From NCBI RefSeq assembly GCF_002563895.1, contig NZ_PDJB01000001.1, positions 2,835,501 through 2,899,500 of the forward strand: 64,000 nt of DNA, given 5' to 3'. A program made the position numbers and the translations under genes. Each line of letters starts with the position of its first letter. Position 1 is the first letter of the stretch. Source of the stretch: Pseudomonas lurida. Lineage in GTDB: Bacteria > Pseudomonadota > Gammaproteobacteria > Pseudomonadales > Pseudomonadaceae. Below are positions 55 to 22,189 of the stretch, piece after piece. The notes under the pieces were generated by a model. The model was not told where the DNA came from. It made no database searches and saw only the letters and a program-made list of their open reading frames with translations.

Positions 55-209
55 TAGTAACGATGGTCAACGACACAAGCCGGCATCGATCGTCGCAGGG
101 GTATGAGCAAAACTCACAGCCCCATGACTTTTAATGGTTACGGCCACTTTCACCGCCAGTGCTAAAAAATCGCCAACCAGCTCCCATAACAACAATGAGC
201 GTTTGCGCA

Positions 210-722
210 ATGAAAACACTGGATCTCTACATCGGCGAAGGTTTCGAAGGCCCGGGTGTCAACGCGGCCCACATCAACATCCTGATCGGCCCCCGCAACG
301 GCCCGGCCGGCCAGGCATTTGCCAACAGCCTGGCCTCCCCAAGCCAGGGACACTGCCCCTTCATGGTGATTGCCCAGCCGAATATCCCGGTCAAGCCCAT
401 GACCCTGTACGTCAACAAGGCCGAAATCAGCAGCGACCTACACGGCAACGCCACCTGGGGTGCCTCCCAGGCCGGCATCGCCAAGGCGGTGCTCGAAGCC
501 TTGCTCGACGGCACCTTGCCACCCGAAGCCGAAGACGAATGGGCCATCGTCACCGCCAACTGGGTCAACCCGGCCTGCGATGACCTGGATGCGGTCTACC
601 TGAACAACTATAACGCCTGCCGCACGGCGATCCGTGCCGCCTTGACCGGGACGCCGTACACCGCGCAGTTGGCTGACGTGGTCAACCACATCAGCAACCC
701 TTTCTACACGCCAAAGGCTTGA
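210..722 (+). CDS. Formaldehyde-activating enzyme (Fae) family protein
   Basis: A 170-residue protein, the usual length of Fae, which condenses formaldehyde with tetrahydromethanopterin in the cytoplasm of methylotrophs. The N-terminal half carries the family pattern GEGFEGPG, then AAHINILIGPRNGPAG with the conserved His (residue 21), then VIAQPNIPVKPMTL. The C-terminal half has NYNACRTAIRAAL. I chose the ATG at 210 because the sequence from there matches the Fae start; ATGs at 159 and 195 are possible and no start has a clear Shine-Dalgarno site. The stop overlaps the ribosome site of the aldo/keto reductase gene, so the two should be co-transcribed. No H4MPT biosynthesis or mtd/mch gene is visible. 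The protein may therefore use another cofactor, act as a formaldehyde or aldehyde sensor or scavenger, or have a new substrate. Family call firm, reaction unknown. Confidence 0.82.
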   Translation: MKTLDLYIGEGFEGPGVNAAHINILIGPRNGPAGQAFANSLASPSQGHCPFMVIAQPNIPVKPMTLYVNKAEISSDLHGNATWGASQAGIAKAVLEALLDGTLPPEAEDEWAIVTANWVNPACDDLDAVYLNNYNACRTAIRAALTGTPYTAQLADVVNHISNPFYTPKA

Positions 723-732
723 GGAGACTCCC

Positions 733-1767
733 ATGCAATACATCCGTTTGGGCAACTCCGGCCTGCAAGTCTCGCGCCTATGCCTGGGCACCATGAACAT
801 GGGCACCCCGGACTGGAAACCATGGATCTTCGACGAAAAGCAAAGCGAGCCCATCGTCGCCCACGCCTTGGACAATGGCGTCAACTTCATCGACCTGGCT
901 GACTTCTACTCCGCTGGCGTCGGCGAGGAAGTAGTGGGGCGCATCCTCAAGCGCGTGGCGCGGCGCGAGGACATCGTGGTCACCACCAAAGTCGGCTACG
1001 GCACCCGCAGTGGCATCAACGCCAGCGGTCACTCGCGCAAGCACATCATGGACAGCATCGACGCCTCCCTAAGTCGCCTGGGCATGGATTACGTCGACGT
1101 GTTCATGCTGCATTACTTCGACGTGAACACCCCGGTGGAAGAAACCATGAACGCGCTGAACGACATCGTGCGTGCCGGCAAGGCGCGCTACATCGGCGTA
1201 TCCACCATGCTCACCGGCCAACTGGCGAAGATCCTCATGGCCTGCGAGCGTAATGGCTGGGTCAAGCCGATTAACATGCAACTGCAACTGAACTGCGCCT
1301 ACCGCGAGGAAGAGCGCGAGATGATTCCGTTCTGCCGCGACCAGGGACTGGGCGTCTCGGTGTTCAGCCCGCTGGCCCGTGGCCTGCTCACCGGTGAGGT
1401 GCAATCGACGCGCAACCAGACCGATTTCTTCACCCAGCAGATGTACAGCGACCAAGCGTCGTTCGACATCGCCCATTCGGTACAACGTGTGGCCCGCGCC
1501 CGTGGTGTGTCCAACGCACAGATCGCCCAGGCCTGGGTCGCCCACCATCCAGGCGTCGATGTGATGCTGGTCGGCGCCGACACCACCGAGCAATTCGACA
1601 GCGCACTGGCAGCCCTCGATACCCAGCTGGATGCCGAGGAACTCCACGAGCTCGAACGCAACTACACCCCGTGCGATGTGATCAACGACTACACCGCCGG
1701 CAAGCGCATCCTGCGTGCGGCCCGTCCGGGCCTGGACCGTTTCAACCTGATCGAGGCCGTGGCATGA
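733..1767 (+). CDS. Aldo/keto reductase
   Basis: A 344-residue NADP-type aldo/keto reductase with a TIM-barrel fold. The catalytic tetrad is readable as Asp54, Tyr59 (IDLADFYS), Lys86 (TTKVG) and His127 (FMLHYFD). The N-terminus MQYIRLGNSGLQVSRLCLGT is typical of the YajO/Tas/AKR11-like branch. GAGGAG at 721-726, which overlaps the stop of the Fae-like gene, places the ATG at 733. The stop overlaps the start of the following aldehyde dehydrogenase gene by four bases (ATGA), which implies translational coupling. Together with the dehydrogenase it probably interconverts an aldehyde or ketone with its alcohol during catabolism. The substrate is not evident. Confidence 0.9.
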   Translation: MQYIRLGNSGLQVSRLCLGTMNMGTPDWKPWIFDEKQSEPIVAHALDNGVNFIDLADFYSAGVGEEVVGRILKRVARREDIVVTTKVGYGTRSGINASGHSRKHIMDSIDASLSRLGMDYVDVFMLHYFDVNTPVEETMNALNDIVRAGKARYIGVSTMLTGQLAKILMACERNGWVKPINMQLQLNCAYREEEREMIPFCRDQGLGVSVFSPLARGLLTGEVQSTRNQTDFFTQQMYSDQASFDIAHSVQRVARARGVSNAQIAQAWVAHHPGVDVMLVGADTTEQFDSALAALDTQLDAEELHELERNYTPCDVINDYTAGKRILRAARPGLDRFNLIEAVA

Positions 1768-3197
1768 ACCCGCTGATCCGTACCGGCAACTACATCGACG
1801 GCCAATGGTCCAGTGGCGGCCCGACCTACCCGGTAGTCAACCCGGCCAATGGCGCGCTGATTACTGATGTACAGCGCGCCGCTGCCGAAGAAACGAACCT
1901 GGCTATCGACGCCGCCGAACGTGCGCTGCCTGCCTGGCGCAAGCTGACTGCCAAGGAACGCAGCCAGCGCCTCAAGCGCTGGAGCGAACTGATGCTCAGC
2001 AACCAGCAGGACCTGGCCCGTTTGCTGAGCCTGGAACAGGGCAAGCCCCTGGCCGAAGCCATGGGCGAAGTGGTCTACGCCGCGAGCTTCCTGGAGTGGT
2101 TCGGCGAAGAAGCCAAGCGCGCCTATGGTGATGTGATCCCGAGCCACAAGGCGGATGCGCGCATCATCGTGGTCAAGGAGGCTATCGGTGTAGTCGCGGC
2201 GATCACGCCGTGGAACTTCCCCCTGGCCATGGTCACTCGCAAGGTCGGCCCGGCGCTGGCGGCGGGGTGCACCATGATCCTCAAGCCATCGGAGGAGACG
2301 CCCTTGTCGGCATTTGCCCTGGCGGTATTGGCCGAGCAGGCGGGGATTCCGGCCGGCGTGTTCAACATCGTCTCCGGCGATGCCGTGGCGATTGGCGGTG
2401 CGCTGCAAGCTTCCAGCGTGGTGCGCAAGCTGTCGTTCACCGGCTCCACGCGCACCGGCAAACTGCTGATGCGCCAGGCGGCGGATACGCTTAAAAAGGT
2501 CTCGCTGGAACTGGGCGGCAACGCGCCGTTTATCGTGTTTGACGACGCCGACCTCGACGCCGCCGTCAAAGGTGCCATGGCTTCCAAGTTCCGCAACACC
2601 GGGCAGACCTGCGTGTGCGTCAACCGCTTCTTTATCCAGGACGGCGTGTACGACGCCTTCACCCGCAAGCTGGCCGAGGCCGTCAGCGCCATGCGTGTCG
2701 GCAGCGCGCTGGACGGCGAAACCGAACAAGGCCCACTGATCAACGCTGCCGCCCTGGCCAAGGTCGAAGCCCATGTGGGTGACGCATTGGAGAAGGGCGC
2801 CAGGCTGCTGTGCGGGGGCCGTCGCCATGCCTTGGGCGGCACTTTCTTCGAGCCGACCATCCTCACCGAAGCCCACGGCGATATGCTTATCGCCCAGGAA
2901 GAAACCTTCGGTCCCGTAGCTGCGTGCTTGCGTTTCAACGATGAGGCCGAAGTGCTGCAACGCGCCAACGACACGCCGTTCGGTTTGTCCGCGTACTTCT
3001 ACAGCCGTGACATCGGCCGCGTGTGGCGCATGGCCGAAGGCCTGGAAGCCGGCATGGTCGGCATCAATGAAGGGATTATTTCTACGGAAGTCGCGCCATT
3101 CGGCGGCATCAAGGAATCAGGTCTGGGCCGTGAAGGCTCCAAGTACGGCCTGGATGACTACCTGGAGATCAAATACCTGTTGATGGGCGGTCTCTGA
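1764..3197 (+). CDS. NAD(P)-dependent aldehyde dehydrogenase (succinate-semialdehyde dehydrogenase-like)
   Basis: A 477-residue aldehyde dehydrogenase that oxidises an aldehyde to a carboxylate. It has the coenzyme-site PWNFPLAM near residue 149, KPSEETP near 174, the general base Glu249 in LELGGNAP, and the nucleophile Cys283 in NTGQTCVCVN. The sequence is closest in style to the GabD/SSADH branch, with an EQGKPLAEA helix and an APFGGIKESGLGREG end. The ATG at 1764 overlaps the aldo/keto reductase stop, and an upstream in-frame start at 1671 would only extend into that gene. As third gene of the operon it probably finishes oxidation of the product of the first two. The real aldehyde could be a semialdehyde or formaldehyde-derived compound; that is inference. 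Confidence 0.88.
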   Translation: MNPLIRTGNYIDGQWSSGGPTYPVVNPANGALITDVQRAAAEETNLAIDAAERALPAWRKLTAKERSQRLKRWSELMLSNQQDLARLLSLEQGKPLAEAMGEVVYAASFLEWFGEEAKRAYGDVIPSHKADARIIVVKEAIGVVAAITPWNFPLAMVTRKVGPALAAGCTMILKPSEETPLSAFALAVLAEQAGIPAGVFNIVSGDAVAIGGALQASSVVRKLSFTGSTRTGKLLMRQAADTLKKVSLELGGNAPFIVFDDADLDAAVKGAMASKFRNTGQTCVCVNRFFIQDGVYDAFTRKLAEAVSAMRVGSALDGETEQGPLINAAALAKVEAHVGDALEKGARLLCGGRRHALGGTFFEPTILTEAHGDMLIAQEETFGPVAACLRFNDEAEVLQRANDTPFGLSAYFYSRDIGRVWRMAEGLEAGMVGINEGIISTEVAPFGGIKESGLGREGSKYGLDDYLEIKYLLMGGL

Positions 3198-3350: not shown

Positions 3351-4727
3351 ATGACTGCTCAATCCGTCAAAATCGACGATCTGCCAATCGGCCGCTTTCA
3401 CCTGAAAATTGCCGGCCTGACCTTCGGCGCGCATTTTACCGACGGCTATATCCTCGGCCTGATCGGCATTGCCTTCACCCTGCTTAGCCCACAAATGCAA
3501 CTGGATGCCTTCTGGCAAGGCCTGATCGGTGCTTCGGCCCTGATCGGTCTGTTTCTGGGCAGCCTGTTTTTCGGCTGGATATCCGACACCCTCGGCCGGC
3601 AGAAAATTTTCCTGGTCAGCTTTGTGCTGATCACCGTGGCCTCGGTGATGCAGTTCTATGCCGAGACGGCCATGGGGCTGTTGCTGTGCCGGATCCTGAT
3701 TGGCATAGGCCTGGGCGGCGACTTCAGTGTCGGGCACGCCATGCTCGCCGAGTTTTCACCGAAGAAACATCGCGGCGTATTGCTCGGGTCGTTCAGCGTG
3801 ATCTGGACCTTCGGCTACGTGGCCGCGACCTTTGTCGGCACCGCGATGCTCAGCCTGGGCGACGATGCCTGGCGCTGGATGCTGGCATCGTCGGCGATTC
3901 CCGCCGGCTTGATCCTGATCGCGCGCATTGGCACCCCGGAATCGCCACGCTGGCTGGTCAACCGTGGACGCATTGCCGAAGCCCGCGCCATCGTCAAGAA
4001 ACACCTGGGCGAGCACGTGGTGCTGGACGAAGAACCGTCCGCGCAGACCCGCTCTGGCTACGGGGTGCTGTTCAGCCGTGAATACCGCAAGCGCACAGCG
4101 TTCAATTGCCTGTTCTTTGTGTGCATCGTGATGCCGTATTTCGCGATCTATACCTTCCTGCCGTCGATCCTGCAGAAGATGGGCCTGTCCCAAGGCTTTG
4201 GCACCGAGCTGCTGCTTAACCTGCTGCTGATTGTCGGCGCCCTGATCGGAATAGGGTGCACAGTGAAGTTTTCGCGCCGGGGATTTTTGATCAATTCGTT
4301 CATCATCCTCGCGGCGGCGCTGTTTCTCTTGGCGGTGTTGCCGGGAAGCATGGCGTGGTTGATGGTGCTGACCTTCGGCGTATTCACCTTGGTACTGTCA
4401 GCGGTGAGCAACCTGGTGGGTGTGTTCCCCGCAGAAAGCTTCCCCACCGAAGTGCGCGCCAGCGGTATCGGCCTGGCCACAGCGGTCAGCCGTCTGGGGT
4501 CGGCGATCAGTACCTTCCTGTTGCCGGTGAGCGTGGCCGGAATCGGCTTGAGCCCGACCATGGGCATTCTCGCGGCGATCCTGGTGTTTGGTGCAATCAT
4601 CTCCTGGGCCTGGGCCCCGGAAACCAAGGCGTTGACCTTGAGCCAAGCGTGCAAGGCCGAGGCGCCGCCGGTGTCAGGGGTTGCTGACTTGCCCCAGCCA
4701 CTGCGTAAACAACCGAACCTTGGATAA
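3351..4727 (+). CDS. MFS transporter, metabolite:H+ symporter type
   Basis: A 458-residue inner-membrane transporter with twelve predicted helices. The loop motif GWISDTLGRQK after helix 2 and PESPRWLVNRGR at the end of the first half are diagnostic of the sugar porter / metabolite-proton symporter branch of the major facilitator superfamily. A GGGAG site at 3340-3344 precedes the ATG at 3351. It sits 153 bases after the aldehyde dehydrogenase, across a REP pair, and probably imports the substrate of the Fae/AKR/ALDH operon. Its last 54 bases overlap the 3' end of the opposite-strand LysR gene. The substrate cannot be read from the sequence; organic acids and aromatic acids are common for this branch. 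Confidence 0.88.
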   Translation: MTAQSVKIDDLPIGRFHLKIAGLTFGAHFTDGYILGLIGIAFTLLSPQMQLDAFWQGLIGASALIGLFLGSLFFGWISDTLGRQKIFLVSFVLITVASVMQFYAETAMGLLLCRILIGIGLGGDFSVGHAMLAEFSPKKHRGVLLGSFSVIWTFGYVAATFVGTAMLSLGDDAWRWMLASSAIPAGLILIARIGTPESPRWLVNRGRIAEARAIVKKHLGEHVVLDEEPSAQTRSGYGVLFSREYRKRTAFNCLFFVCIVMPYFAIYTFLPSILQKMGLSQGFGTELLLNLLLIVGALIGIGCTVKFSRRGFLINSFIILAAALFLLAVLPGSMAWLMVLTFGVFTLVLSAVSNLVGVFPAESFPTEVRASGIGLATAVSRLGSAISTFLLPVSVAGIGLSPTMGILAAILVFGAIISWAWAPETKALTLSQACKAEAPPVSGVADLPQPLRKQPNLG

Positions 4728-5549
4728 ACCCTGTTTTTCCGTCGCCACATCCAGCCAATAGCCATAAGGACCGATCACTTCCACGGGGGTGATCGGCAAC
4801 AGGCTGCCGTTGGCCAGTTCACGTTCGATCATCTGCCGATCGATCACCGCTAAGCCACCGCCTGCCAGGGCGGTATGGATCACTTGGTCGAGGGTGCTGA
4901 ATTCCAGGCCCTGGTCCGCATCAATATCGTCTCGGCCCATGGCCGCCAGCCAGTTCTCCCAGACTCTCAAGCGTTTGCCGTCGTGCAGGATATGCAGCAG
5001 TGGGTAGCGCCGCAGGTCTGGCGGCTGGCCGTTGCTGAACAACTCGGGGCTGGCCACGGCGATGTGACGTTCCATCACCAACAGTTCGCTGCTGCAATGG
5101 GCCGCCGGATCCAGGCCGAAGCGGATCTGGCAGTCGATTTCCGCCAGGCTGTCGTGGGTCGCCTGGTGCGTGACACTGAGGTTGATATCCGGGTAGCGCT
5201 CGCAGAAACGCCGCAAATGCGCGGACAACCAACGCGTCGCCCAGGTCGGCGGCGCGACAATGCGCAGGCGCTGGCGCAGGTTGGGCACGCGCACGGCTTG
5301 CAGGGCGCGCTCGATATGGTCGAAGGCGTCGCTCAGGTGCGGGGACAGGGCGAAGCCGACTTCGGTGAGTGACAGCCCCTGGGGAGTGCGGATGAAGAGG
5401 GCGACGCCGAGGTAGTCTTCCAGTTGCTTGATCTGGCGGCTCACCGCGCCTTGGGTCACGTTGAGGCCCACGGCAGCTTGGCTGAAGCTGCGGTGGCGGG
5501 CGACTTCTTCGAAGATGCGGAGCATGTTGAGGGAAGGCAGTTGGCGCAT
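4674..5549 (-). CDS. LysR-family transcriptional regulator (GcvA type)
   Basis: A 291-residue regulator. The winged helix-turn-helix occupies residues 1-60 (FSQAAVGLNVTQGAVSRQIKQL) and is followed by a GcvA-like effector domain starting with LRIVAPPTWATRWL. I chose the ATG at 5549, which has GTGGA upstream; a GTG at 5561 would add four residues. It is convergent with the MFS gene and overlaps its end by 54 bases, an arrangement that produces complementary 3' ends. It is the nearest candidate regulator of the fae-like operon, though no binding site could be tied to it. Confidence 0.88.
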   Translation of the reverse strand: MRQLPSLNMLRIFEEVARHRSFSQAAVGLNVTQGAVSRQIKQLEDYLGVALFIRTPQGLSLTEVGFALSPHLSDAFDHIERALQAVRVPNLRQRLRIVAPPTWATRWLSAHLRRFCERYPDINLSVTHQATHDSLAEIDCQIRFGLDPAAHCSSELLVMERHIAVASPELFSNGQPPDLRRYPLLHILHDGKRLRVWENWLAAMGRDDIDADQGLEFSTLDQVIHTALAGGGLAVIDRQMIERELANGSLLPITPVEVIGPYGYWLDVATEKQGLSKVRLFTQWLGQVSNP

Positions 5550-5589
5550 GGGGTATTCCACACATTGTTTTTAGAGTGTTTGTGCTGGC

Positions 5590-5686: not shown

Positions 5687-6856
5687 TTAGAAGTAATACC
5701 CGATGTTCATGTACAGCTGGTTTTCCCATTGATTGCTACCCCCAGCGCCCAAGCTCTGGGTATAGCTGCTGCCCCCAATGTAAGGATCGTTCTTGCCAAT
5801 CAACCACTCGGTGGCGATCCACAACTTGCTGAACGAAAACGACGTGCCCAGGATCACCCGCTGCGACGTCTTGAACTCATCGGCGGATTTATCAAAGGCG
5901 CTGTAGTTGGCATACAGCTTCACACCGCTGACCTGATCCCACAGGTATTTGCCGCCTACGTCGTAGCTCAAGTCGGCCACATAAAGGTTGCCGCGACTGG
6001 CAACGTTGAAGGTGCCGTCATAGCCGCCCAGGGTTACCACTTCGTCAGTGCCGGCGTTGCGCGGTGACATCTGTTGGCGTGCCGCCTGCAATTGCAGGCC
6101 CCACGGGCCATTCTTGCCCAGGTAGTGAACGGCGACCGCGTTGCGGCGGCCATCGTTGCCGGTGTCTTTGTTTTCCAGGGTCGAGGTGAGGCCCGACAGG
6201 CCCACTTCGGACTTCCAGTCGCCCAGCTCCAGGGCCTTGGCCACGCGCAGCACAACGGTGTTGCGTTCCTGGTTGTCGCTGCCGTCGGCCACGTAGCTGT
6301 CGGCGCCGGAGACCACGCTGGAATAGGTCACGCCCTTGCTGGTGCCCTTGCCTTGCCACGCCGGTCGCAGGTAATAGCCGGCCTGGATGTTCCAGTCGCC
6401 GCTTTGTTGCACGTACTTGGCGCCGACCTGCTGCACATCTTCCAGCCCGATCACGTTGCCCAGGGTTTCGTAGAAGGTACTGCCAAAGTACGGCTGCAAG
6501 CCAAATGGCACGGTATTCAGGCCCACCTGCACTTGCTGCTCGGGGTTGAATTTGTAGCCGACCCAGGCGAACTTGGCGAACTGGATATCACCGTAGTTCT
6601 TGGTGTACTGGTAGGGGTACGAACGCCCGTAGAAGCGGTACTGCGCCTCGCCGATCCAACTGTCGGAGTTGTACTTGGCGCTGAGGAACACGGTGTCCAG
6701 GCCGAACTTCTGGATGTCGCGGTCCGGGTCGTAGTCCCAGCGCGCACGGATGGCGCCGCCGAGGTCGAGGTTGTCGGTGACCTGCACGGCCATGGCCGGG
6801 CTCGCCAAGGCGCCGAGCACGGGGATCAGGGTGAAGTAGCGCATTGTTGGTCGCAT
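5687..6856 (-). CDS. Outer-membrane porin
   Basis: A 389-residue beta-barrel protein. From the ATG at 6856 it begins with a signal peptide that ends ALASPAMA before VQVTDNLD. The mature part is rich in alternating aromatic and polar strands and ends in the C-terminal Phe (NIGYYF) used by the BAM complex. GAGAG 7 bases before the ATG at 6856 favours that start over an upstream one at 6889. It lies 84 bases after the ABC importer genes on the same strand, so it may be the outer-membrane port for the same substrate. I cannot place it in OprD, OprB or OprO with confidence. Confidence 0.8.
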   Translation of the reverse strand: MRPTMRYFTLIPVLGALASPAMAVQVTDNLDLGGAIRARWDYDPDRDIQKFGLDTVFLSAKYNSDSWIGEAQYRFYGRSYPYQYTKNYGDIQFAKFAWVGYKFNPEQQVQVGLNTVPFGLQPYFGSTFYETLGNVIGLEDVQQVGAKYVQQSGDWNIQAGYYLRPAWQGKGTSKGVTYSSVVSGADSYVADGSDNQERNTVVLRVAKALELGDWKSEVGLSGLTSTLENKDTGNDGRRNAVAVHYLGKNGPWGLQLQAARQQMSPRNAGTDEVVTLGGYDGTFNVASRGNLYVADLSYDVGGKYLWDQVSGVKLYANYSAFDKSADEFKTSQRVILGTSFSFSKLWIATEWLIGKNDPYIGGSSYTQSLGAGGSNQWENQLYMNIGYYF

Positions 6857-6940
6857 GGTTTTACTCTCGTTTTTAGTTTTTTTGGGCAACAGCAGCCCGT
6901 TGCCGCAGCGAACGCTGCGACGCGGGCGAAAGGGTTGAAC

Positions 6941-8581
6941 TCAGTGAGCGGCGGGGCGGATCAACCGCAATGGCGGCCCGGCAGCGGGCAGTTCGGACGC
7001 GCCCGGCGCAGCGGCCAGCAGTGCCTGGGTGTAGGCATTTTGCGGACGCAGCAGCACCTGCTCGGCAGTGCCGTACTCCACCACTTCGCCCTGGCGCATC
7101 ACCGCAATGTGATCGCTGATCTGCGCGGCCACGCGCAGGTCATGGGTGATGAACAGGATGCTCAGGTTCAGTTGCTTCTGCAGGCTGGCGAGCAACTCCA
7201 GCACTTGCTTCTGCACCGACACATCCAGCGCCGATACGCTCTCATCGGCAATCAGCACTTCCGGGCGCATCGCCAGCGCACGGGCAATACCGATGCGCTG
7301 GCGCTGGCCACCGGAAAACTGCCGGGGCTTGCGCTGCAAGGCGTCGCGCTTGAGGCCGACTTGCTCAAGCAAGTCGCCGGCCTCGGCCCAGGCGTCCTTG
7401 GCCGACAACCCACGCAGTTGTGCGGCGCGGGCAATGATGTCGCCGATGCGGTGGCGTGGGTTCAATGAACCGTACGGGTCCTGGAAGATCATCTGGATAC
7501 GCCGCCGATTGGCCGCCAACGCGGAACCGCTGAGGGCGAGGAAGTCGGTGTCGCCAACCCACACATGTCCGCTGTCGCTGTCCACCAGGCGGATCGCCGC
7601 CTTCACCAAGGTGCTCTTGCCCGAGCCGGACTCACCAACGATTGCCAGGGTCTTGCCCCGTGGCAGGTTCAGCGACACATTGCGCAACGCCGCTACCGAG
7701 CTGCCGCCGACGGTGTAGGTCTTGGTCAAGTGCTCGATGCGCAAGGCCATTTCGCCATCCACGCTTGGCGCATGCAGTTCCGGGTGCAGTGCTGGTACCG
7801 CGGCGATGAGTTTGCGGGTGTAGGCATGGGCCGGCGCATTCAACACCTGGTCACGCTCGCCGATCTCCACCAGGCGTCCGCCTTCCATCACTGCAATACG
7901 GTCGGCAATCTGGGCCACCACGCCAAAGTCGTGAGTGATGAAGAGGATGCCGTGCTGGCCGCGTCCGCGCAGGTCACGCACCAGCTTCAGCACCTGGGCC
8001 TGGGTGGTCACGTCGAGGGCGGTGGTGGGCTCGTCGGCAATCAGCAAGTCCGGGTTCATCGCCAAGGCCATGGCGATCACCACTCGTTGGCACTGGCCGC
8101 CGGACAGTTGATGGGGAAAGCTGTTGGCGATGCGTGGCGGGTCTGGCAGTTGGGTGGACTCCAGCAACGCGAGCATGCGTTCACGGCGTTCGGTAGCGGA
8201 CATCTGCGGGGCGTGGATGTCGAAGATTTCCTCGACTTGTTTGCCAATCCGAATTGCCGGGTTCAGCGCCGCCATGGGCTCCTGGAAGATCATCGCGATG
8301 CGGTTGCCACGCAGGGCGCGCAAGCGGGCGTCGTTCAGGGTGCAGATATCATCGCCAAGGAAGTCGATCACCCCCCCGGCATGCCGCAGGCCTTTGGCGT
8401 AGTCGCCCATGATCGCCGCCGACAGCACGGATTTGCCCGAGCCCGACTCGCCGATCACACACAGGATTTCACCCTTGCGCACGTCCAGGCTGATGCCCTG
8501 AACGGCGTGGCTGCGGTCGGCGCCCTTAGGCAGTTCGACCGAGAGGTTATCGACCCGTAATACCGTTTGATGGCTGCTCAT
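6941..8581 (-). CDS. Peptide-type ABC importer, fused dual ATP-binding protein
   Basis: A 546-residue protein with two complete ABC ATPase domains in one chain, as in YejF/GsiA and DppD-DppF fusions. Domain 1 has Walker A GESGSGKSVL, signature LSGGQCQR and Walker B LLIADEPTTALD. Domain 2 has GESGSGKSTL, FSGGQRQR and LIADESVSALD. The oligopeptide-type linker after domain 1 is PAHAYTRKLIAAVPAL. I chose the ATG at 8581, with AAGGAG at 8588-8593 upstream; a TTG at 8587 is weaker. It starts two bases after the permease gene. It energises import through the two permeases encoded just upstream. Confidence 0.93.
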   Translation of the reverse strand: MSSHQTVLRVDNLSVELPKGADRSHAVQGISLDVRKGEILCVIGESGSGKSVLSAAIMGDYAKGLRHAGGVIDFLGDDICTLNDARLRALRGNRIAMIFQEPMAALNPAIRIGKQVEEIFDIHAPQMSATERRERMLALLESTQLPDPPRIANSFPHQLSGGQCQRVVIAMALAMNPDLLIADEPTTALDVTTQAQVLKLVRDLRGRGQHGILFITHDFGVVAQIADRIAVMEGGRLVEIGERDQVLNAPAHAYTRKLIAAVPALHPELHAPSVDGEMALRIEHLTKTYTVGGSSVAALRNVSLNLPRGKTLAIVGESGSGKSTLVKAAIRLVDSDSGHVWVGDTDFLALSGSALAANRRRIQMIFQDPYGSLNPRHRIGDIIARAAQLRGLSAKDAWAEAGDLLEQVGLKRDALQRKPRQFSGGQRQRIGIARALAMRPEVLIADESVSALDVSVQKQVLELLASLQKQLNLSILFITHDLRVAAQISDHIAVMRQGEVVEYGTAEQVLLRPQNAYTQALLAAAPGASELPAAGPPLRLIRPAAH

Positions 8582-8583
8582 GC

Positions 8584-9420
8584 TCAACTCCTTGCGCCTT
8601 GCTGCGCGTGTTCATCCAGACCGTCCGCCAGCAGGCTCAAGCCCAGCATCAGGGTGGAGATGGCAATGCATGGGAAAATCACCAGGTGCGGGAAGGCGAT
8701 GGCCATGGCGCGGCCATCGTTGATCATGCCGCCCCAGTCCGGGGTGGGCGGTGGCAGGCCCAGGCCGAGGAAGCCCAGTGCACCGATCATGATCGCGGTG
8801 TAGCCGATACGCAGGCAGAAATCGACGATCAGCGGCCCGCCGCAGTTGGGCAGGATCTCCACCAGCATGATGCGTAGCGAGCCTTCGCCCTGGGTAATGG
8901 CGCTGAGCACGTAGTCGCGGGAGCGAATATCGATGGTCAACGCGCGCATGATGCGAAAGATCGCCGGGGCGCTGGTGAAGGTCACCGCGATCAGGATGTT
9001 CAGCGCCGACGCACCCAGGGCGATGATGATCACGATGTACAGCACCAGCACCGGGAACGACAGCACGGTGTCGGCTACATAGGACAGCACCGCATCGACC
9101 CAGCCGTTGAAGTATCCGGCGCACAGGCCCATGGCGATGCCTACTGCGAACGCGGTGAGGGTGGCGAGGATCGACCAGAACAGCACGGTGCGCGTGCCCC
9201 AGATCAGGCGCGAAAGGATGTCGCGGCCGATCATGTCGGTACCGAGCAGAAAGCTGGCGCCGTCATCGCCTGCGGTCATGGGCGACAGCAGCGGGGTGAA
9301 GCTTTCCAGCGGATCATGGGGCGCCAGCCAGGGCGCACAGAGGGCGACCAGCACCCAACCGCCGACCAGCAGCAAGCCAAGCAGGGCCAGGGGATGCTTG
9401 AAGGATGTGAGCAGGTTCAT
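8584..9420 (-). CDS. ABC transporter permease (DppC/OppC-like)
   Basis: A 278-residue inner-membrane permease. It starts with one N-terminal helix and APWLAPHDPLES, typical of OppC/DppC, and has GTDMIGRDILSRLIWGTR before the main helices. The EAA-like coupling region is near SAITQGEGSLRIMLVEILPN, and the end has GLPPPTPDWGGMINDGR. The ATG at 9420 overlaps the upstream permease stop by four bases. It forms the heterodimeric channel with the DppB-like permease. Confidence 0.92.
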   Translation of the reverse strand: MNLLTSFKHPLALLGLLLVGGWVLVALCAPWLAPHDPLESFTPLLSPMTAGDDGASFLLGTDMIGRDILSRLIWGTRTVLFWSILATLTAFAVGIAMGLCAGYFNGWVDAVLSYVADTVLSFPVLVLYIVIIIALGASALNILIAVTFTSAPAIFRIMRALTIDIRSRDYVLSAITQGEGSLRIMLVEILPNCGGPLIVDFCLRIGYTAIMIGALGFLGLGLPPPTPDWGGMINDGRAMAIAFPHLVIFPCIAISTLMLGLSLLADGLDEHAQQGARS

Positions 9421-10370
9421 TGGCGACCTCCGCCGAGACTGCGCAAGGTAATGCGCGGGTTGAGCCAGGTGTAGGCCAGGTCCGAGAAGATCTTGCTGAT
9501 GCCCACCACCACGCCGCTGATCATCGCGCACGCTTCGATCAGGTAGACGTCGTGGTTCAGTGACGCGGTGTAGAGCAGCGAGCCGAAGCCCTTGTAGGCG
9601 AAAAACACCTCCACCACGATCACGTTCGATAGCAGCCACGGGATGTACAGCATGATCACCGTGACCGGTGCGATCAGTACATTACGCAGCGCATGGCGCA
9701 ATACGATGCGCGTGGTCGAGGCCCCCTTGAGCCGTGCGGTGCGGATGTACGGGGCCTGCATCACTTCGACCATCGAGGCGCGGGTAATGCGCGCCAGGTA
9801 GCCGATGCCGAACAGGCACAGCACCATCAGCGGCAGCACCAGCTCCACAACGCTGAAACCGTCGCTCATGCTGCTGACACCAGGCAGCCAGTTAAGCCAG
9901 AACACAAAGATCGCCGAGACGAACACTGCACTGGCGAAGTCCGGAATCGAGGTGGTGACAATCGACAGGAACGACACCAGCCGGTCGATCGGCGAGCCCT
10001 GGCGAATCCCCGCGAGGACGCCCAGGGTCAGTGCTACCGGGACCATCACCAGCAAGGCCAGGCCGGCCAGGGTCAGGGTTTGCCACAGGTTGGGCAGCAA
10101 CAGGTTGAGCACCGGTTCACGGAAGTACACCGAGGTGCCCCAGTCGCCGGTCACAAAATCCTTGAGCCATACCAGGTAGCGCCACACGAACGGTTGGTTG
10201 TAGCCGTGTTCCAGCAGCCACGCCGCTCGCTGATCAGCGGCGGAGTAGGGGCCGAGGACGTTGATTGCCACGTCCTCGATGTTCAGTTCCAGGGCCAGGA
10301 ACACAATCAGCGACACCGACAGCAAGGTCGCCACCAGCATCAGCAGTTTTCGCAATAGAAAATGAGCCAT
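9417..10370 (-). CDS. ABC transporter permease (DppB/OppB-like)
   Basis: A 317-residue permease with the OppB/DppB layout: a first helix near residue 10, a long periplasmic segment (YNQPFVWRYLVWLKDFVTGD), then five more helices and the coupling stretch TARLKGASTTRIVLRHALRN. I prefer the ATG at 10370 (MAHFLLRKL) because the GGAG site lies almost on top of the ATG at 10379; the difference is three residues. The stop overlaps the next permease start. It is part of a four-gene importer operon. Confidence 0.9.
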   Translation of the reverse strand: MAHFLLRKLLMLVATLLSVSLIVFLALELNIEDVAINVLGPYSAADQRAAWLLEHGYNQPFVWRYLVWLKDFVTGDWGTSVYFREPVLNLLLPNLWQTLTLAGLALLVMVPVALTLGVLAGIRQGSPIDRLVSFLSIVTTSIPDFASAVFVSAIFVFWLNWLPGVSSMSDGFSVVELVLPLMVLCLFGIGYLARITRASMVEVMQAPYIRTARLKGASTTRIVLRHALRNVLIAPVTVIMLYIPWLLSNVIVVEVFFAYKGFGSLLYTASLNHDVYLIEACAMISGVVVGISKIFSDLAYTWLNPRITLRSLGGGRQ

Positions 10371-10427
10371 CAGGGGCATGCTCCGACAGGGAAAGGGTGT
10401 CGCGCTTCAGCGTCTTGATTCAGACGC

Positions 10428-12062
10428 TCAGGCGCTCAGCCAGACATTGCCCATGGGGTAGAAGTCGGAAGGGTGCACCTGGAAGCCCTGCACCTTTTTG
10501 CTCACGGCGGTGAACTTGTCGCCCCAGAACGGCTGCACGATCACGCACGCGTCCTGCAGGATCTGCTCGACGTTTTGCATGGCCACGGCGCGCTGCTTCG
10601 GATCGATGATGCCCATGGCCTTGTCCAGTGCGGCATCGAAGGCCGGGTCGCTGTAGTGGCTTTCGTTCCAGGCGCCGCCGCCGCGATAGGCCAGTTCCAA
10701 GGACATCACCCCGAGCGGGCGATGGGCCCAGTAGGTCAGGCTGAACGCGGCCTTGTCCCAGATCGGCCAGTATTGCGCGGCGGGGATGACTTTGAGGTTG
10801 ATACGGATGCCCGCTTCCAGGCAGTTTTGCTGCAGGATCTGCGCGCAGTCCTGCTCATAGCGCCCCTGTGTGTTGCCGACGATCAAGTCGATGTCCAGGC
10901 CGTTGGCAAAGCCGGCTTCGGCCAAGAGTTTTTTCGCTGTTGCCACATCGCGCCCGCGCTTGGGCAGCGGAAAGTATTCGGGGTGGGAGGGGGCCACGTG
11001 GTGGTCTTCACCCAGCGTGCCCATGCCACGATAGGCGACCTTGAGCATCTGTTCGTTGTCGGCGCAGAGCACCACGGCTTTGCGCACCCGCACATCGGTA
11101 AACGGCTTCTGGTCGCAGGCCATGCGCATCACCACGGTCTGCGCGGATTTGCAGGTGAGCAACTGTGCACCGGGCAGGCGTTTGGCCAGGTCCAGTTCGG
11201 CCACGGTCACGCGGTACAGCACGTCAACCTGTCCGGCTTGCAGGGCGGCGAGGTGGGTCGACACGTCGGTGCCCATGTCGATGTAGCGCAGTTCGTCGAG
11301 GTTGGCCGGTTTGCCCCAGTAATCGGCGCGCTTGGCGAACGTGGCCTGCTTGTTCACTGCAAACGACACCAGCTTGAACGGACCGGTGGCCAGCGGGTTC
11401 TTGGCCCAGTCATCCCCAGCCTTGAAGCTGCGGTGCACGATGGCGCAGGTGAAGGCGTTGAGCATCTCCGGGATCGCCAGGATCGGCCGCTTGAGGTGGA
11501 GGCGGAACTGGTGGTCGCTGACTTTCTCGAAGGCCTTGATGTCCTGGAAGGCGGTGCGGTTGACTGATTTCGAATCGGCGGCGATCCAACGCTGGATATT
11601 GTGCTGCACGTCGTCGACGTTGAAGCTGTCGCCGTTGCTCCACTTTACGTCCTGGCGCAGGTTGAAGGTCCAGGTGGTGAGGTCGTCGGACGGGCTCCAG
11701 CTTTCGGCGAGGTACGGGTGGGTGATGTTATCCGCGTCGACCCAAGTCAGGTATTCCAGCGAGTTGCGCAGCAGGTTCGAGGCTTCGATCCAGGTGATCA
11801 GCATCGGGTCCTGGATTTCCTGGATGGCGCAGGCGAAGCGCAGGCTGCCACCTTGGCGGGCAGGTGTGCCGTCGGCAGCCTGGGCGTCGCTGCCCAGCAA
11901 GGCTGAGCCAATAAAACTGCTGGCGCTGGCTGCGGTAATGCCCAGCAGGGCGGCGGTGCGCAGGAATTGGCGGCGGTTGATCTCGCCGCTGATAACGTGG
12001 GCACACAGGTCGTTTACGGCGGGATGCGGCTGGGCGCCGTCCAGGGTAGTCAACTCTTTCAT
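10428..12062 (-). CDS. Periplasmic substrate-binding protein of the peptide-type ABC importer
   Basis: A 544-residue family-5 extracellular solute-binding protein. The N-terminus carries a twin-arginine signal, INRRQFLRTAALLGI, followed by a hydrophobic stretch and AQAADG, so export by the Tat route is likely. GGAGAGG before the ATG at 12062 decides the start. Domain landmarks include YLAESWSPSDDLTTWTFNLR and the DVRVRKAV segment typical of DppA/OppA-like proteins. It is the first gene of the SBP-permease-permease-ATPase run. The ligand could be a di- or oligopeptide, opine or modified amino acid. The dioxygenase and M24 enzyme upstream suggest an amino-acid derivative, but that is inference. 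Confidence 0.92.
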   Translation of the reverse strand: MKELTTLDGAQPHPAVNDLCAHVISGEINRRQFLRTAALLGITAASASSFIGSALLGSDAQAADGTPARQGGSLRFACAIQEIQDPMLITWIEASNLLRNSLEYLTWVDADNITHPYLAESWSPSDDLTTWTFNLRQDVKWSNGDSFNVDDVQHNIQRWIAADSKSVNRTAFQDIKAFEKVSDHQFRLHLKRPILAIPEMLNAFTCAIVHRSFKAGDDWAKNPLATGPFKLVSFAVNKQATFAKRADYWGKPANLDELRYIDMGTDVSTHLAALQAGQVDVLYRVTVAELDLAKRLPGAQLLTCKSAQTVVMRMACDQKPFTDVRVRKAVVLCADNEQMLKVAYRGMGTLGEDHHVAPSHPEYFPLPKRGRDVATAKKLLAEAGFANGLDIDLIVGNTQGRYEQDCAQILQQNCLEAGIRINLKVIPAAQYWPIWDKAAFSLTYWAHRPLGVMSLELAYRGGGAWNESHYSDPAFDAALDKAMGIIDPKQRAVAMQNVEQILQDACVIVQPFWGDKFTAVSKKVQGFQVHPSDFYPMGNVWLSA

Positions 12063-12251
12063 AAGCCTCTCCGGTACTTGCGAATATGCGTTTTTGTTGA
12101 ACCGCAAAGGGTCAGTGGCAAGCGCCGGCAAGGCGCAGCACGGACCGCTGTGAAACCGGCAGACGAACAAGGCACAACGAAGTCAGGAGGCGGGCAATGG
12201 GATAGGACATAGGGCAGCTCTCATGTTGTTTTTATTAGAGATGCCCGCAGT

Positions 12252-13583: not shown

Positions 13584-13634
13584 GGGGTGTTCCTCGCAGG
13601 GCAAATACGGTGTTTGAGAGTTGGGCGGTGTGAA

Positions 13635-16821: not shown

Positions 16822-16991
16822 GTGCTATTTATTCGTGAGCGACGCAACCCGGCAAAAAACGACGTGCCCAGCCACGGCGGTGTCTTGTGTTCCGTTGCAG
16901 AGGGCGCTACCCCTGGCCTAATACAAAAAGGTATGTTGATGGGGAAATTGGTTGCCTAATCTTCCTTCTCCGCCGCTGTCGAGTGCCCACC

Positions 16992-17921
16992 ATGAAACGC
17001 AAAATGCCCGGTCTCAATGCCCTCAAAGCCTTCGAAGTCGCCGGCAGCACCGGCAGCTTCACCCGGGCTGCGGAGCTTCTGAACGTGACCCAGAGTGCGG
17101 TCAGCCGCCAGGTCCGGCAGTTGGAAGAGCAACTGGGCGAGAACTTGCTGGAACGGCGCCACCACCATCTGGAACTGACCAGCGCCGGCCGCGTATTACT
17201 GCGTGCGCTGCACCAATCGTTCGACAAGATCGAGCTGACGGTGCGCAGCATCCAGCAGAAAACCCACTCCAACCGCCTGCACATCAATGCACCGCCGACC
17301 TTTACCAGCCGCTGGTTGATGCCGCGCCTGGGGCGCCTGCGCGAGGCTCATCCCGAACTGGAGCTGAGCATTACCACATGCTTGCAGGACAGCCTGGCGC
17401 AGACCAGTACGCTGGATTGCGCCATTCGGTTTGGCAATGGAGAGTGGGATGGGTTGGACAGTTCGCTGTTGATTCAGGAGCGGCACATTGCGGTATGTGC
17501 ACCGTCGCTGTATGCCCGCGAATGCAGTGATGGCGTGGACCTGAATCGCATGACCTTGCTGCATGTGTTGGCCAGTGAGGATCAGCGTTACCTCACGTGG
17601 AAGCATTGGCTGGATGCGGCGCGGATCCACGGTGTGGATACCCAGGGCGGGTATGAGTTCGACTTGCTGGACCTGGCGATCCGGGCAGCCACCGACGGAC
17701 TGGGGATTACCATTGCCGACTGGCATATGGTAGCCGCGGAGTTGGCCTCCGGGCAGTTGACCCAGGTGCTCAATGTGCACGTGGAGGGGCATCAGTCTTA
17801 TTGGCTGGTGACTCGACCGGAGCAGACGGATATGCCTCAGCTGCAGGTATTTGGGCGCTGGTTGCAGGAGGAGATCTGGTTGGCCCAGCGGCAGTTGGAG
17901 CCCTCGACTGCTGCGGGTTGA
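16992..17921 (+). CDS. LysR-family transcriptional regulator (GcvA type)
   Basis: A 309-residue regulator that starts MKRKMPGLNALKAFEVAG, a common opening of GcvA-like proteins. The helix-turn-helix is FTRAAELLNVTQSAVSRQVRQL, and the effector domain begins near LHINAPPTFTSRWLMPRLG. The ATG at 16992 matches the family start; upstream in-frame sequence back to 16887 does not resemble the family. It is divergent from the YbfB-like MFS gene and precedes the aldehyde dehydrogenase operon by about 200 bases, so either could be its target. Confidence 0.88.
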   Translation: MKRKMPGLNALKAFEVAGSTGSFTRAAELLNVTQSAVSRQVRQLEEQLGENLLERRHHHLELTSAGRVLLRALHQSFDKIELTVRSIQQKTHSNRLHINAPPTFTSRWLMPRLGRLREAHPELELSITTCLQDSLAQTSTLDCAIRFGNGEWDGLDSSLLIQERHIAVCAPSLYARECSDGVDLNRMTLLHVLASEDQRYLTWKHWLDAARIHGVDTQGGYEFDLLDLAIRAATDGLGITIADWHMVAAELASGQLTQVLNVHVEGHQSYWLVTRPEQTDMPQLQVFGRWLQEEIWLAQRQLEPSTAAG

Positions 17922-17944
17922 GTGGGGTTGTGATGGTGTGCATG

Positions 17945-17997: not shown

Positions 17998-18131
17998 TGT
18001 GTCCCCACCCCCCCTAACACCACTAACCTGCATTTTTCTCACGTTAGCCCACCCAATAAGTCGTTTGCACACCCCCCAAGCAAATACAAAACTGCATGTC
18101 ACTCGCAAAACAACAACGTTGGGCAAACCAC

Positions 18132-19556
18132 ATGCAACTCGAGCGAAATTTCTACAACGGCCAATTCGTCGAACCCGCCAGCGACGCACTGATCGCCGTC
18201 TACAACCCTGCCACCGAAACCCTCGTCGGCCACGTCAGCGCTGCCACGGCCGACGAAGCCATCGCCGCCGTCGACGCTGCTGCCATCGCCCAGAAGACCT
18301 GGGGCAAACTCACCAGTATCGAACGCGCCGAACACCTGCGGGCTTTCGCCGATGCCCTGGACACTCAGGCCGAAGCCATCGGCGCCGCCCTGGCCAGCGA
18401 ATCTGGCAAGAGCCACAGCGACGCGAGCAACGAAGCGCGCTACGCCGCACAAATCACCCGCTACCACGCCGAATGGGCGAGGCGTATCGAAGGCGAAATT
18501 ATTCCCAGCGATACCCCGGACGAAAACCTGTTCCTGCAACGCGAGCCGATCGGTGTCGTGGCCTGCCTGATCCCGTTCAACTACCCGGTCTACACCCTCC
18601 TGCGCAAGATCGCCCCGGCGTTGATTGCCGGTAACACCGTGGTGGTGCGGCCGAGCAACAACACGCCGCTGTCGGCGTTTGAAATCGCCAAGGCCGTGGT
18701 CAAGGCCGGTATTCCGGCCGGTGTGATCAATATCCTCACCATGGACCACGCCACCGCCGCCAGCGTCTGTACCCACAAGGCCGTCGGCCTGATCACCCTC
18801 ACCGGTAGCGTGAACGCCGGGCGCATCGTGCTCGATTACTGCAAGGCCAATATCGCCAAGCCATCCCTGGAACTGGGTGGCAAGACCCCGGCGATCATCG
18901 AGGCCGATGCCGACCTGGAAAAAGCCGCCAGCGCCATTATTGCCTCCAAGACCACCCACTGCGGTCAGCTGTGCACGGCGGTGGAGCGTGTGTATGTGCA
19001 TGAAAGCGTCTACGAACAATTCCTCGCGCTGCTGAAAGCGAAGATCAGCGCGGTGAAATTCGGTGACCGGGCCAAAGACGAAAGCCTGATGGGCCCGCTG
19101 GTCAACGCCAGTTCGCAAAAGAATGTCCACGCCATGGTCGAGCGCGCCGTGGCCGCCGGTGCTGTACTGGAGACAGGCGGTGTGCTGCCCGAAGGCCCGG
19201 GCCATTTCTACCCGCCGACCCTGCTCAGCGGCTGCCGCCAGGACATGGAAATCATCCAGGAAGAAATCTTCGGCCCGGTGCTGCCGGTGCTCAAGTACCG
19301 CGACATCGATGATGCGCTGGCCATGGCCAACGACCACCAGTTCGGCCTGTCGTCGGTGCTCTACACCGAGAATTACCGCACGGCGATGAAGGTGGCGAAT
19401 GCCATCGAGGCCGGCGAGTTGTACGTCAATCGCACTCCGGCGGACCCTTACCAGGGTTTCCACGCGGGCTGGAAGCGCTCGGGGCTGGGCGGCGACGACG
19501 GTAAGCACGGGATGCTTGAGTTCACCCAGACCCGCCTGGTGGTCATGAAGTACTGA
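18132..19556 (+). CDS. Aldehyde dehydrogenase (AldA-like)
   Basis: A 474-residue NAD(P)-dependent aldehyde dehydrogenase. The general base is in LELGGKTPAI and the nucleophilic Cys in THCGQLCTAVERV. FNYPVYTLLRKIAPALIAGN and the ending GMLEFTQTRLVVMKY place it near lactaldehyde/glycolaldehyde dehydrogenase AldA. Neither the ATG at 18132 nor the one at 18096 has a good ribosome site; I chose 18132 because MQLERNFYNGQFV fits the family start. It is the first gene of a run with MFS, enolase-superfamily and GMC genes and may oxidise the aldehyde made by the GMC enzyme. Confidence 0.86.
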   Translation: MQLERNFYNGQFVEPASDALIAVYNPATETLVGHVSAATADEAIAAVDAAAIAQKTWGKLTSIERAEHLRAFADALDTQAEAIGAALASESGKSHSDASNEARYAAQITRYHAEWARRIEGEIIPSDTPDENLFLQREPIGVVACLIPFNYPVYTLLRKIAPALIAGNTVVVRPSNNTPLSAFEIAKAVVKAGIPAGVINILTMDHATAASVCTHKAVGLITLTGSVNAGRIVLDYCKANIAKPSLELGGKTPAIIEADADLEKAASAIIASKTTHCGQLCTAVERVYVHESVYEQFLALLKAKISAVKFGDRAKDESLMGPLVNASSQKNVHAMVERAVAAGAVLETGGVLPEGPGHFYPPTLLSGCRQDMEIIQEEIFGPVLPVLKYRDIDDALAMANDHQFGLSSVLYTENYRTAMKVANAIEAGELYVNRTPADPYQGFHAGWKRSGLGGDDGKHGMLEFTQTRLVVMKY

Positions 19557-19598
19557 TCCACGAATACCCGCAGCACCTTTAATAAAAACAATTATTGG

Positions 19599-19619
19599 GG
19601 CACCCACGCATCGGGTGCC
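19599..19619 (+). terminator. Hairpin between the aldehyde dehydrogenase and MFS genes
   Basis: GGCACCC-ACGCATC-GGGTGCC is a perfect seven-base stem just before the MFS ribosome site. There is no T tract after it, so it is more likely an RNA stability or attenuation element than a strong terminator. Confidence 0.4.
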
Positions 19620-19629
19620 TGAGGTTCGA

Positions 19630-20943
19630 ATGATGTCCAAGCCTGCCCCCGTTGCCCAGGTTTCCGTTGCCGTGCCCGCTGCCAACAGCGACACCGCCAG
19701 TCGCTACTTCCAATTGATGTTGCTGGTGCTCGCAGCAGGGGCGATCTATCCGATCCTCTACCTGCGCCAGGTCTACCAGACCACCATGCTCGAGGTGTTC
19801 CACATCAACCACAGCGAGTTGGGCTACCTGTACTCCATGCTGGGTACGGTCTTCCTGCTCAGTTACCTGCCCAGCGGTTGGCTGGCGGACCGTTTGCCTC
19901 CGCGTTTCCTGATCTTCTTTTCGCTGGTCGCCACCGGAGCGCTGGGCCTGTGGTATTCCACCGTACCGTCGATGACCGGCCTGATGATCATCTTCGGTTG
20001 CTGGGGCCTGACTACCGGCCTGACGTTCTGGGCTTCGGTGCTCAAGCGCGTGAAAATGATCGCTCACCACAGCGAGCAAGGCCGGTTCTTTGGCATCCTC
20101 GATGGCGGCCGCGGACTGGTCGAAGCCTTGCTGGCGACCGTCGCCCTGGGCCTGTTCGCCTATGCCACCGAGACACGCAGCCAATCGGCGGCCGAAGGCT
20201 TCAAGCACGTGGTGTACCTGTATTCTTTCGTGTGTATCGCCATTGGCTGCATCCTGGTGCTACTCAAGGATCCCAAATCCATGGCCGAGACTGCGGCGGT
20301 GGAGAAGGGCAAGTTCAACCTGATTGCCGACCTGACCACTCTGGTGAAAATCCCCGAGCTGTGGCTGGTGACCGCTATCGTGTTCTGCGGTTATCACATG
20401 TTCTGGGCCACCTACAGTTTCTCCGACTACTTGCAAGGCAGCGGCATGACCGCCGTGATGGCCGGCACCATCACCACCATCAAGCTGTGGATGCGCCCCA
20501 TCGGCGGCATCGGTGGCGGCTGGCTGGGGGACAAGTTCTCGAACATCTCGGTACTGATCGTTGCCCTGGCCCTGGTGACCCTGGCCATGGCCGGGCTGAT
20601 CGTGTTCCCGGCACTCAACAGCCTGGGCCTGCTGATCGGCACCGTGATCTTCATCGGCCTGATGACCTACGCGATCCGTGGCCTGTACTGGGCGATCCTC
20701 GACAGCTGTGACATTCCGCTGCGTATCACCGGCCTGGCCATCGGCATTGTCTCGGTGGTGGGGTACCTGCCCGACACCTTTATCCCGCTGATCAATGGCT
20801 ATCTGACCGAGACCTACCCAGGCAAGGCCGGCTACAACCTGTATTTCGGCTACATCGCCTTCATCGGCGTGCTCGGCACCCTTGCGGCCTTGACCCTGCG
20901 CGCCCGAATCAATCGTAAAAAATTCAACCAGACAGGTGCCTGA
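19630..20943 (+). CDS. MFS transporter
   Basis: A 437-residue inner-membrane carrier. Helix 1 includes FQLMLLVLAAGAIYPILYL, the loop 2-3 motif is PSGWLADRLPPR, and twelve helices are predictable. TGAGG at 19619-19623 supports the ATG at 19630; the ATG at 19633 is also possible. The style resembles sugar-acid or glycerol-phosphate-type carriers of the YihN group. The stop lies one base before the enolase-superfamily start, so the two are translationally coupled. It likely brings in the substrate of the linked enzymes. Confidence 0.85.
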   Translation: MMSKPAPVAQVSVAVPAANSDTASRYFQLMLLVLAAGAIYPILYLRQVYQTTMLEVFHINHSELGYLYSMLGTVFLLSYLPSGWLADRLPPRFLIFFSLVATGALGLWYSTVPSMTGLMIIFGCWGLTTGLTFWASVLKRVKMIAHHSEQGRFFGILDGGRGLVEALLATVALGLFAYATETRSQSAAEGFKHVVYLYSFVCIAIGCILVLLKDPKSMAETAAVEKGKFNLIADLTTLVKIPELWLVTAIVFCGYHMFWATYSFSDYLQGSGMTAVMAGTITTIKLWMRPIGGIGGGWLGDKFSNISVLIVALALVTLAMAGLIVFPALNSLGLLIGTVIFIGLMTYAIRGLYWAILDSCDIPLRITGLAIGIVSVVGYLPDTFIPLINGYLTETYPGKAGYNLYFGYIAFIGVLGTLAALTLRARINRKKFNQTGA

Positions 20944-20944
20944 G

Positions 20945-22162: not shown

Positions 22163-22189
22163 AAAAAACGACTGATGCGGTAACCGTGA

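Follow-up and report, generated by a model that had tools for sequence, protein, structure and literature searches.

A Fae-fold protein of Pseudomonas lurida from a clade apparently independent of tetrahydromethanopterin and probably part of a catabolic gene module

The window analyzed here, a stretch of 64,000 nucleotides of the Pseudomonas lurida genome (assembly GCF_002563895.1, contig NZ_PDJB01000001.1, positions 2,835,501 to 2,899,500 of the forward strand), carries near its start three consecutive genes (Table 1): a homologue of fae, the gene for the ‘formaldehyde-activating enzyme’, a gene for an aldo/keto reductase (AKR) and a gene for an aldehyde dehydrogenase (ALDH) of the succinate-semialdehyde dehydrogenase (SSADH) type. 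In canonical Fae a His provides the acid catalysis that links formaldehyde to two amine nitrogens of tetrahydromethanopterin (H4MPT), and the gene is a marker for methylotrophy and H4MPT-linked formaldehyde oxidation. The interpretation favored here, with moderate confidence, is that the window protein represents a distinct Fae subfamily that works without H4MPT and has been repurposed for aldehyde–amine chemistry on a catabolite.

Fae is the sole Pfam match of the window protein at E 0.001, the protein passes the cut-off of the NCBIfam equivalog-domain model TIGR03126, and it is the single Fae copy of the complete, one-contig host genome. The sequence-only reading that preceded this work had called the first gene a Fae homologue coupled to an AKR and an ALDH and followed by an importer, and had named loss of Fae similarity in a profile search as a reason to abandon the idea; the fold is full length, the profile match is kept and gene order and profiles confirm the coupling. 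A fusion of the Fae-Hps type is ruled out: model NF009833 scores 104.1 bits against a cut-off of 274 and matches in the Fae part only, and the 170-residue protein has the Fae domain in common with Fae-Hps but not the hexulose-6-phosphate synthase (HPS) part. Glutathione-dependent Gfa resembles Fae in name and in the idea of formaldehyde bound to a carrier; we take it to be a different protein family, and its profile gave no match in the window protein in the Pfam scan at E 0.001. A scan of viral contigs found no confirmed relative of the protein, which tells little about mobility.

A Fae phylogeny, proposed earlier as a check, places the window protein in a well-supported clade of its own and not among canonical Fae. 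The branch that sets this clade apart has support 100/100 in a 99-row tree, in which the bootstrap had not settled and a Streptomyces-like group was not resolved, and 97/98 in an 84-row tree that includes 20 extra Fae copies from methylotroph genomes. Both trees are thinner subsets of rows than the residue alignment described below, and both are midpoint-rooted, the root serving for drawing only. Gamma-, beta- and alphaproteobacteria and actinobacteria compose the clade. Named relatives among the best 120 of 236, at 66–98% identity, come from Pseudomonas, Serratia, Cedecea, Erwinia, Acinetobacter, Halomonas, Dyella, Paraburkholderia and Burkholderia; plasmid-borne members of Ensifer (52% identity) and Streptomyces clavuligerus (45%) extend the clade to alphaproteobacteria and actinobacteria, and it also occurs in uncultured actinobacteria. 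Carriers make up 58 of 298 genomes of the genus Pseudomonas; an Enterobacteriaceae-type family has 8 among 217 genomes and a Burkholderiaceae-type family 47 among 220 (five of them with partial or split matches; both family names are taken from named relatives), and an even draw across the order yields two of 293, namely the host and genome G829.

The complete host genome yielded no match to methenyl-H4MPT cyclohydrolase (MCH) or beta-RFAP synthase; fhc, mtdA/mtdB and ftr were not searched. This genome-wide search had also been suggested as a check, and a canonical Fae with its H4MPT encoded elsewhere in the genome is ruled out on the lack of a match for these two enzymes. MCH is likewise missing from all 58 Pseudomonadaceae carriers examined (57 of the Pseudomonas-genus carriers plus G829; G121, with a 56-residue match, was left out) and from the eight Enterobacteriaceae-type carriers, that is, from 0 of 66 in combination. 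As a control, MCH was found in 47 of 48 other genomes of the class with a Fae match, the sole genome without it being 75% complete. The Fae proteins of these control genomes score at most 119 bits, far under clade level, compared with 334 for the window protein, and the best copies of 29 of them, once aligned, proved canonical. It is highly improbable that the clade consists of ordinary Fae, either retained by chance or supplied with H4MPT or a similar cofactor from another source. The equivalog-domain cut-off that the window protein passes speaks for such an explanation, as does the presence of MCH in 19 of 47 Burkholderiaceae-type carriers, where H4MPT and the clade can share one cell; the lack of a match for either enzyme in the complete host genome, the 66 carriers without MCH, the separate clade and the switched residue columns speak against it. 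Judged by the MCH counts across carriers, the clade can do without MCH, although one genome may hold both. H4MPT-independence of the clade is well supported, and a separate, H4MPT-independent function of its Fae is very probable.

The residue alignment comprises, on the clade side, the window protein with the best 120 of its 236 relatives, every fourth of the best 120 matches from searches with the Streptomyces protein (4472 matches at E 0.001, some part of them canonical Fae) and the Ensifer protein (709), and these two queries. The canonical rows stem from 26 of 29 loci and the Methylobacterium extorquens chain (27 rows); the remaining three loci, added in the 84-row tree, agree. Residue numbers follow the window protein, with which the numbering of the PDB chain agrees in the region discussed. 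Every one of the 183 clade rows has the His, Lys and Gln of the pocket, so that the catalytic His noticed in the sequence-only reading, His21 of the window protein, is retained throughout. In contrast, the pocket Asp of all 30 canonical rows is Asn in 183/183 clade rows, and the pocket Thr, present in 30/30 canonical rows, remains in only 5/183 clade rows and is lost in the window protein. Eleven columns are switched in all, being nearly fixed in both groups (>95% and >90%) with different residues; they include Gln to His78, Phe to Trp83 and Phe to Trp118. Compared with M. extorquens Fae (1y5y/1y60), the window protein is ∼30% identical and, beyond Asp to Asn and the Thr mostly lost in the clade, ten further columns are switched; its host is without an MCH or beta-RFAP synthase match, and its operon holds an AKR and an SSADH-type dehydrogenase. 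Kept catalytic residues with a switched pocket are what one would expect of an active enzyme whose substrate has changed.

Of the 20 extra methylotroph copies, four fall with canonical Fae, and the other 16 (L200, L201, L204–L206, L208–L218) make up a further clade in which Glu or Met replaces the catalytic His. Other uses of the Fae fold therefore probably exist. The 16 copies probably correspond to those named Fae2 and Fae3; proteins of this type are, like the window protein, Fae-fold proteins other than canonical Fae whose function is unclear, but they lack the His that the window clade keeps. A divergent methylotroph paralogue is ruled out as an identity for the window protein, since the sampled copies are without the His and sit on a different part of the tree. 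According to the relevant passage of PMC5023235, deletions of fae2 and fae3 in Methyloversatilis universalis left growth on C1 compounds unaffected. It is conceivable, if quite improbable, that the clade protein has a non-enzymatic role, as an aldehyde-binding or regulatory protein of the operon. The His-less paralogues and the fact that no substrate is known for the clade protein would fit such a role, but the His, Lys and Gln, unlike in those paralogues, never vary.

The partner enzymes bear on the substrate. The AKR contains the motifs DLADFY, TTK and MLHYFD, which we take to hold the catalytic tetrad; its nearest solved relative, DepB, gives no substrate hint. The ALDH passes the SSADH subfamily model, and its best solved relative is the succinate-semialdehyde dehydrogenase 3jz4 (683 bits). 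Cys283 and Glu249 are conserved in 108/108 aligned rows, and Arg159 and Arg277, presumably the residues that receive a carboxylate, in 107/108, the lone exception being an off-operon ALDH on L174, whose operon ALDH falls past the contig end. The Ensifer ALDH, at 681.4 bits, is also above the subfamily cut-off. The window enzyme thus resembles GabD-type SSADH in profile score and conserved residues and differs in its setting, beside a Fae-like protein and an AKR, with no GABA transaminase identified in the module. These features of the ALDH point to a C4 semialdehyde, not to formaldehyde.

This matters for a detoxification role, in which Fae would tie formaldehyde to another small carrier, a thiol or an amine, and the AKR and ALDH would oxidize the adduct. 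The order fae–AKR–ALDH does recall carrier-linked formaldehyde oxidation and the acid catalyst is retained; yet the ALDH keeps residues for a carboxylated semialdehyde, most modules come with importers and LysR regulators, and carriers are a minority of Pseudomonas, which is odd for basic detoxification. Such a role is therefore considered improbable.

The three genes travel together. They occur as fae–AKR–ALDH in all 80 named Pseudomonas-type loci, in 7/7 enteric loci (from seven of the eight carriers) and in 14 of 15 Burkholderiaceae loci, the fifteenth lying at a contig end; fae–AKR is found in 15/15. Two of these 15 loci come from one genome, which has two fae–AKR–ALDH copies, one with a betaine-type ABC importer and one with an MFS orthologue (L176 and L177). 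In Ensifer the order is AKR–fae–ALDH; next come a LysR gene and an ABC importer whose genes are orthologues of those in the window (58–68% identity). In S. clavuligerus, whose context was taken from one of 16 plasmids (L138), a betaine-type ABC set precedes fae, its binding-protein gene overlapping fae, and an SSADH-type dehydrogenase stands with a beta-hydroxyacid dehydrogenase downstream. The nearest solved relative of the latter is 2-hydroxymethylglutarate dehydrogenase 3cky (169.3 bits), a relationship that points, though not conclusively, to a hydroxymethyl acid. The same plasmid stretch (L138:1–13778) also bears the end of a large NRPS/PKS gene.

Importers and regulators accompany the genes in most modules compared, although the importer type alternates between MFS, dipeptide-type ABC and, in some Burkholderiaceae and in Streptomyces, betaine-type ABC. 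An MFS orthologue heads the module in 7/7 enteric loci, with a divergent LysR gene; in Burkholderiaceae an MFS orthologue is found in 8/15 loci and a betaine/choline-type ABC importer beside fae in 4/15, its ATPase scoring above the proV subfamily cut-off. LysR genes (39–50% identity) lie near the module in enteric and Burkholderiaceae loci, and a porin-like gene stands beside it in many Pseudomonas loci. Upstream of fae, the 12-mer GTAACCATTAAA (reverse-strand reading) recurs in 64 of 81 upstream stretches, from the 80 Pseudomonas-type loci and the window, and the element that contains it is probably the operator/promoter region of fae. The betaine-type and dipeptide-type importers suggest a zwitterion as the substrate. 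Three Burkholderiaceae loci (L176:18223–19797, L178 and L175) also carry a MocR-type regulator near the ectoine regulator EhuR (475.6 bits, cut-off 480).

The importers are also relevant to a folate-using Fae, in which formaldehyde from a demethylated substrate would be condensed with tetrahydrofolate and enter C1 metabolism. The betaine-type importers of some loci could bring in methylated substrates, and His, Lys and Gln are kept while the Asp and Thr of the pterin pocket are changed, as a swap of pterin might require. What recurs in the seven enteric loci, however, is importer, fae, AKR, ALDH and LysR, with an ALDH of the SSADH type. Among the neighbors annotated, which are not all of them, none that recurs with the module encodes a demethylase, a formaldehyde dehydrogenase or an enzyme of folate C1 metabolism, and none favors either this explanation or detoxification. 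A folate-using Fae is given the same low probability as detoxification.

Table 1. Features of the window around the fae-like gene and of the linked module B, with the support for each assignment
Feature	Positions	Strand	Support
Conserved non-coding element upstream of fae	122..183	+	TTTTAATGGTTAC at 129-141, TAAAAAATCGC at 163-173
fae-like gene	210..722	+	170 aa, full-length Fae fold, H4MPT-independent Fae clade
Aldo/keto reductase	733..1767	+	Pfam Aldo_ket_red 230.4 bits
SSADH-type aldehyde dehydrogenase	1764..3197	+	TIGR01780 SSADH 700.8 bits, cut-off 646.35
MFS importer of the module	3351..4727	+	Pfam Sugar_tr 193 bits, MFS_1 132.7 bits; import the probable direction
GcvA-like LysR regulator	4674..5561	-	Pfam LysR domains; PRK11139 GcvA 229 bits, under cut-off 288
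Porin-like protein	5687..6889	-	No Pfam/NCBIfam match; named from sequence reading
Dipeptide-type ABC importer, ATPase	6941..8587	-	Profile match; Ensifer orthologue near fae, 60%
Dipeptide-type ABC importer, permease C	8584..9639	-	Profile match; Ensifer orthologue 68%
Dipeptide-type ABC importer, permease B	9417..10379	-	Via Ensifer orthologue (64%) matching Opp/Nik-type permease models
Dipeptide/nickel-type substrate-binding protein	10428..12170	-	Opp5A_nikA 153.9 bits, under cut-off 600; Ensifer 58%
GcvA-like LysR, module B	16887..17921	+	PRK11139 269.6 bits, under cut-off 288
Aldehyde dehydrogenase, module B	18096..19556	+	PRK10090 526.6 bits, cut-off 500
MFS transporter, module B	19615..20943	+	Profile and linkage
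Enolase-superfamily (MR/MLE) enzyme, module B	20936..22162	+	Profile and linkage
GMC oxidoreductase, choline-dehydrogenase-like, module B	22190..23803	+	PRK02106 576.3 bits, under cut-off 605

A second set of genes, module B (16887–23803), lies next to the fae module in 10 of the 12 other Pseudomonas genomes compared, and at least three of its genes are found in 5/15 Burkholderiaceae loci. It is linked to the fae module but dispensable. Its MR/MLE enzyme is very close to PDB entry 4e4u (823.1 bits), whose title names no function, and a second MR/MLE enzyme is also present in the Burkholderiaceae fae loci L176, L178 and L175. Beside the ABC importer, the stretch 12357–14516 encodes an M24 creatinase-type hydrolase related to the DMSP lyase DddP (323.1 bits, cut-off 600) and a HalD/PhyH-like Fe(II)/2-oxoglutarate oxygenase, genes that perhaps belong to a further pathway.

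The sequence-only reading had left the choice between a formaldehyde-releasing catabolic route and an H4MPT-free use of the Fae fold. The second part is upheld by the missing MCH and beta-RFAP synthase matches, the count of 0/58 carriers, the separate clade and the fixed pocket change; the first is neither shown nor excluded, the ALDH pointing to a C4 semialdehyde instead. Because the catalytic machinery is kept, the pocket changed and the cofactor lost, and because the neighbors are a dehydrogenase, a reductase, importers and LysR regulators, aldehyde–amine chemistry on a catabolite is proposed. The module, which is likely to be catabolic, would be induced to degrade a small zwitterion, similar to a betaine or an amino acid, that the cell takes up. 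Working directly on this catabolite, much as Fae works on formaldehyde and H4MPT, the acid catalyst of the Fae-like enzyme would form or cleave a bond of the carbinolamine/aminal or iminium kind that joins an aldehyde to an amine. The AKR (in Streptomyces the beta-hydroxyacid dehydrogenase) would convert the corresponding hydroxy acid and semialdehyde into each other, and the SSADH-type enzyme would oxidize succinate semialdehyde, or a closely similar compound, to the acid. Gene order and residues apart, we infer every step of this pathway. The specific aldehyde–amine and C4-semialdehyde chemistry is put forward tentatively, and the still narrower proposal, a pterin-free Fae fold acting as a carbinolamine/aminal lyase (or condensing enzyme) that frees a C4 semialdehyde from an imported betaine-like zwitterion, is rather unlikely in this exact form. 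Trigonelline, vitamin B6, ectoine, carnitine and sugar-acid routes were considered for the substrate, and none of them is claimed.

Several observations weigh against this interpretation, in addition to the co-occurrence with MCH in Burkholderiaceae. The ligand-contact positions of the pocket and the catalytic role of the His are taken from general knowledge of Fae, not read from coordinates, and one extra copy that groups with canonical Fae, L207, carries Glu in place of both the Thr and the Gln, so that pocket changes are not unique to the new clade. The partner enzymes also vary to a degree: identity is only 47% for the AKR of Ensifer, and S. clavuligerus has its beta-hydroxyacid dehydrogenase instead of an AKR, 820 bases downstream of fae. 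The Streptomyces ALDH, at 527.4 bits, falls under the SSADH cut-off of 646.35, and Arg159 is not specific, being present also in the other ALDH of the window. Neither an MFS orthologue nor a betaine/choline-type ABC importer appears in 3/15 Burkholderiaceae loci, and the betaine-type permease and binding protein of that family score below the cut-offs of their models. Since importers vary, are sometimes missing and in part score below cut-offs, a common substrate class is a guess. Finally, module B is found in 0/7 enteric loci, beyond weak MFS matches in two.

The literature search brought up, among the papers available to it, none recognized as dealing with this Fae clade or operon, the retrieved parts of PMC8879981 and PMC4744692 included; the matching passages of PMC9069715 and PMC5209427 concern glutathione-dependent Gfa, and a search aimed at Fae structure returned nothing on Fae. 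The sequences themselves are already known, since public databases carry clade members under the name formaldehyde-activating enzyme, a label that annotation pipelines assign because the TIGR03126 cut-off admits proteins such as that of the window; the function of the subfamily may prove new. This name is probably misleading for the clade. As its members pass the Fae cut-off in a genome without an MCH or beta-RFAP synthase match, genome and metagenome surveys can misread heterotrophs as formaldehyde oxidizers, those at risk being Pseudomonas, Serratia, Burkholderia, Streptomyces and uncultured actinobacteria. The clade would also be a clear example of a catalytic scaffold put to work on a new substrate, its catalytic residues unchanged and its pocket altered, and the three-enzyme gene set could reveal an undescribed catabolic route. 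If the proposal is true, it would mean an unrecognized enzyme family and a catabolic pathway spread across gamma-, beta- and alphaproteobacteria and actinobacteria that has been mistakenly annotated as formaldehyde activation.

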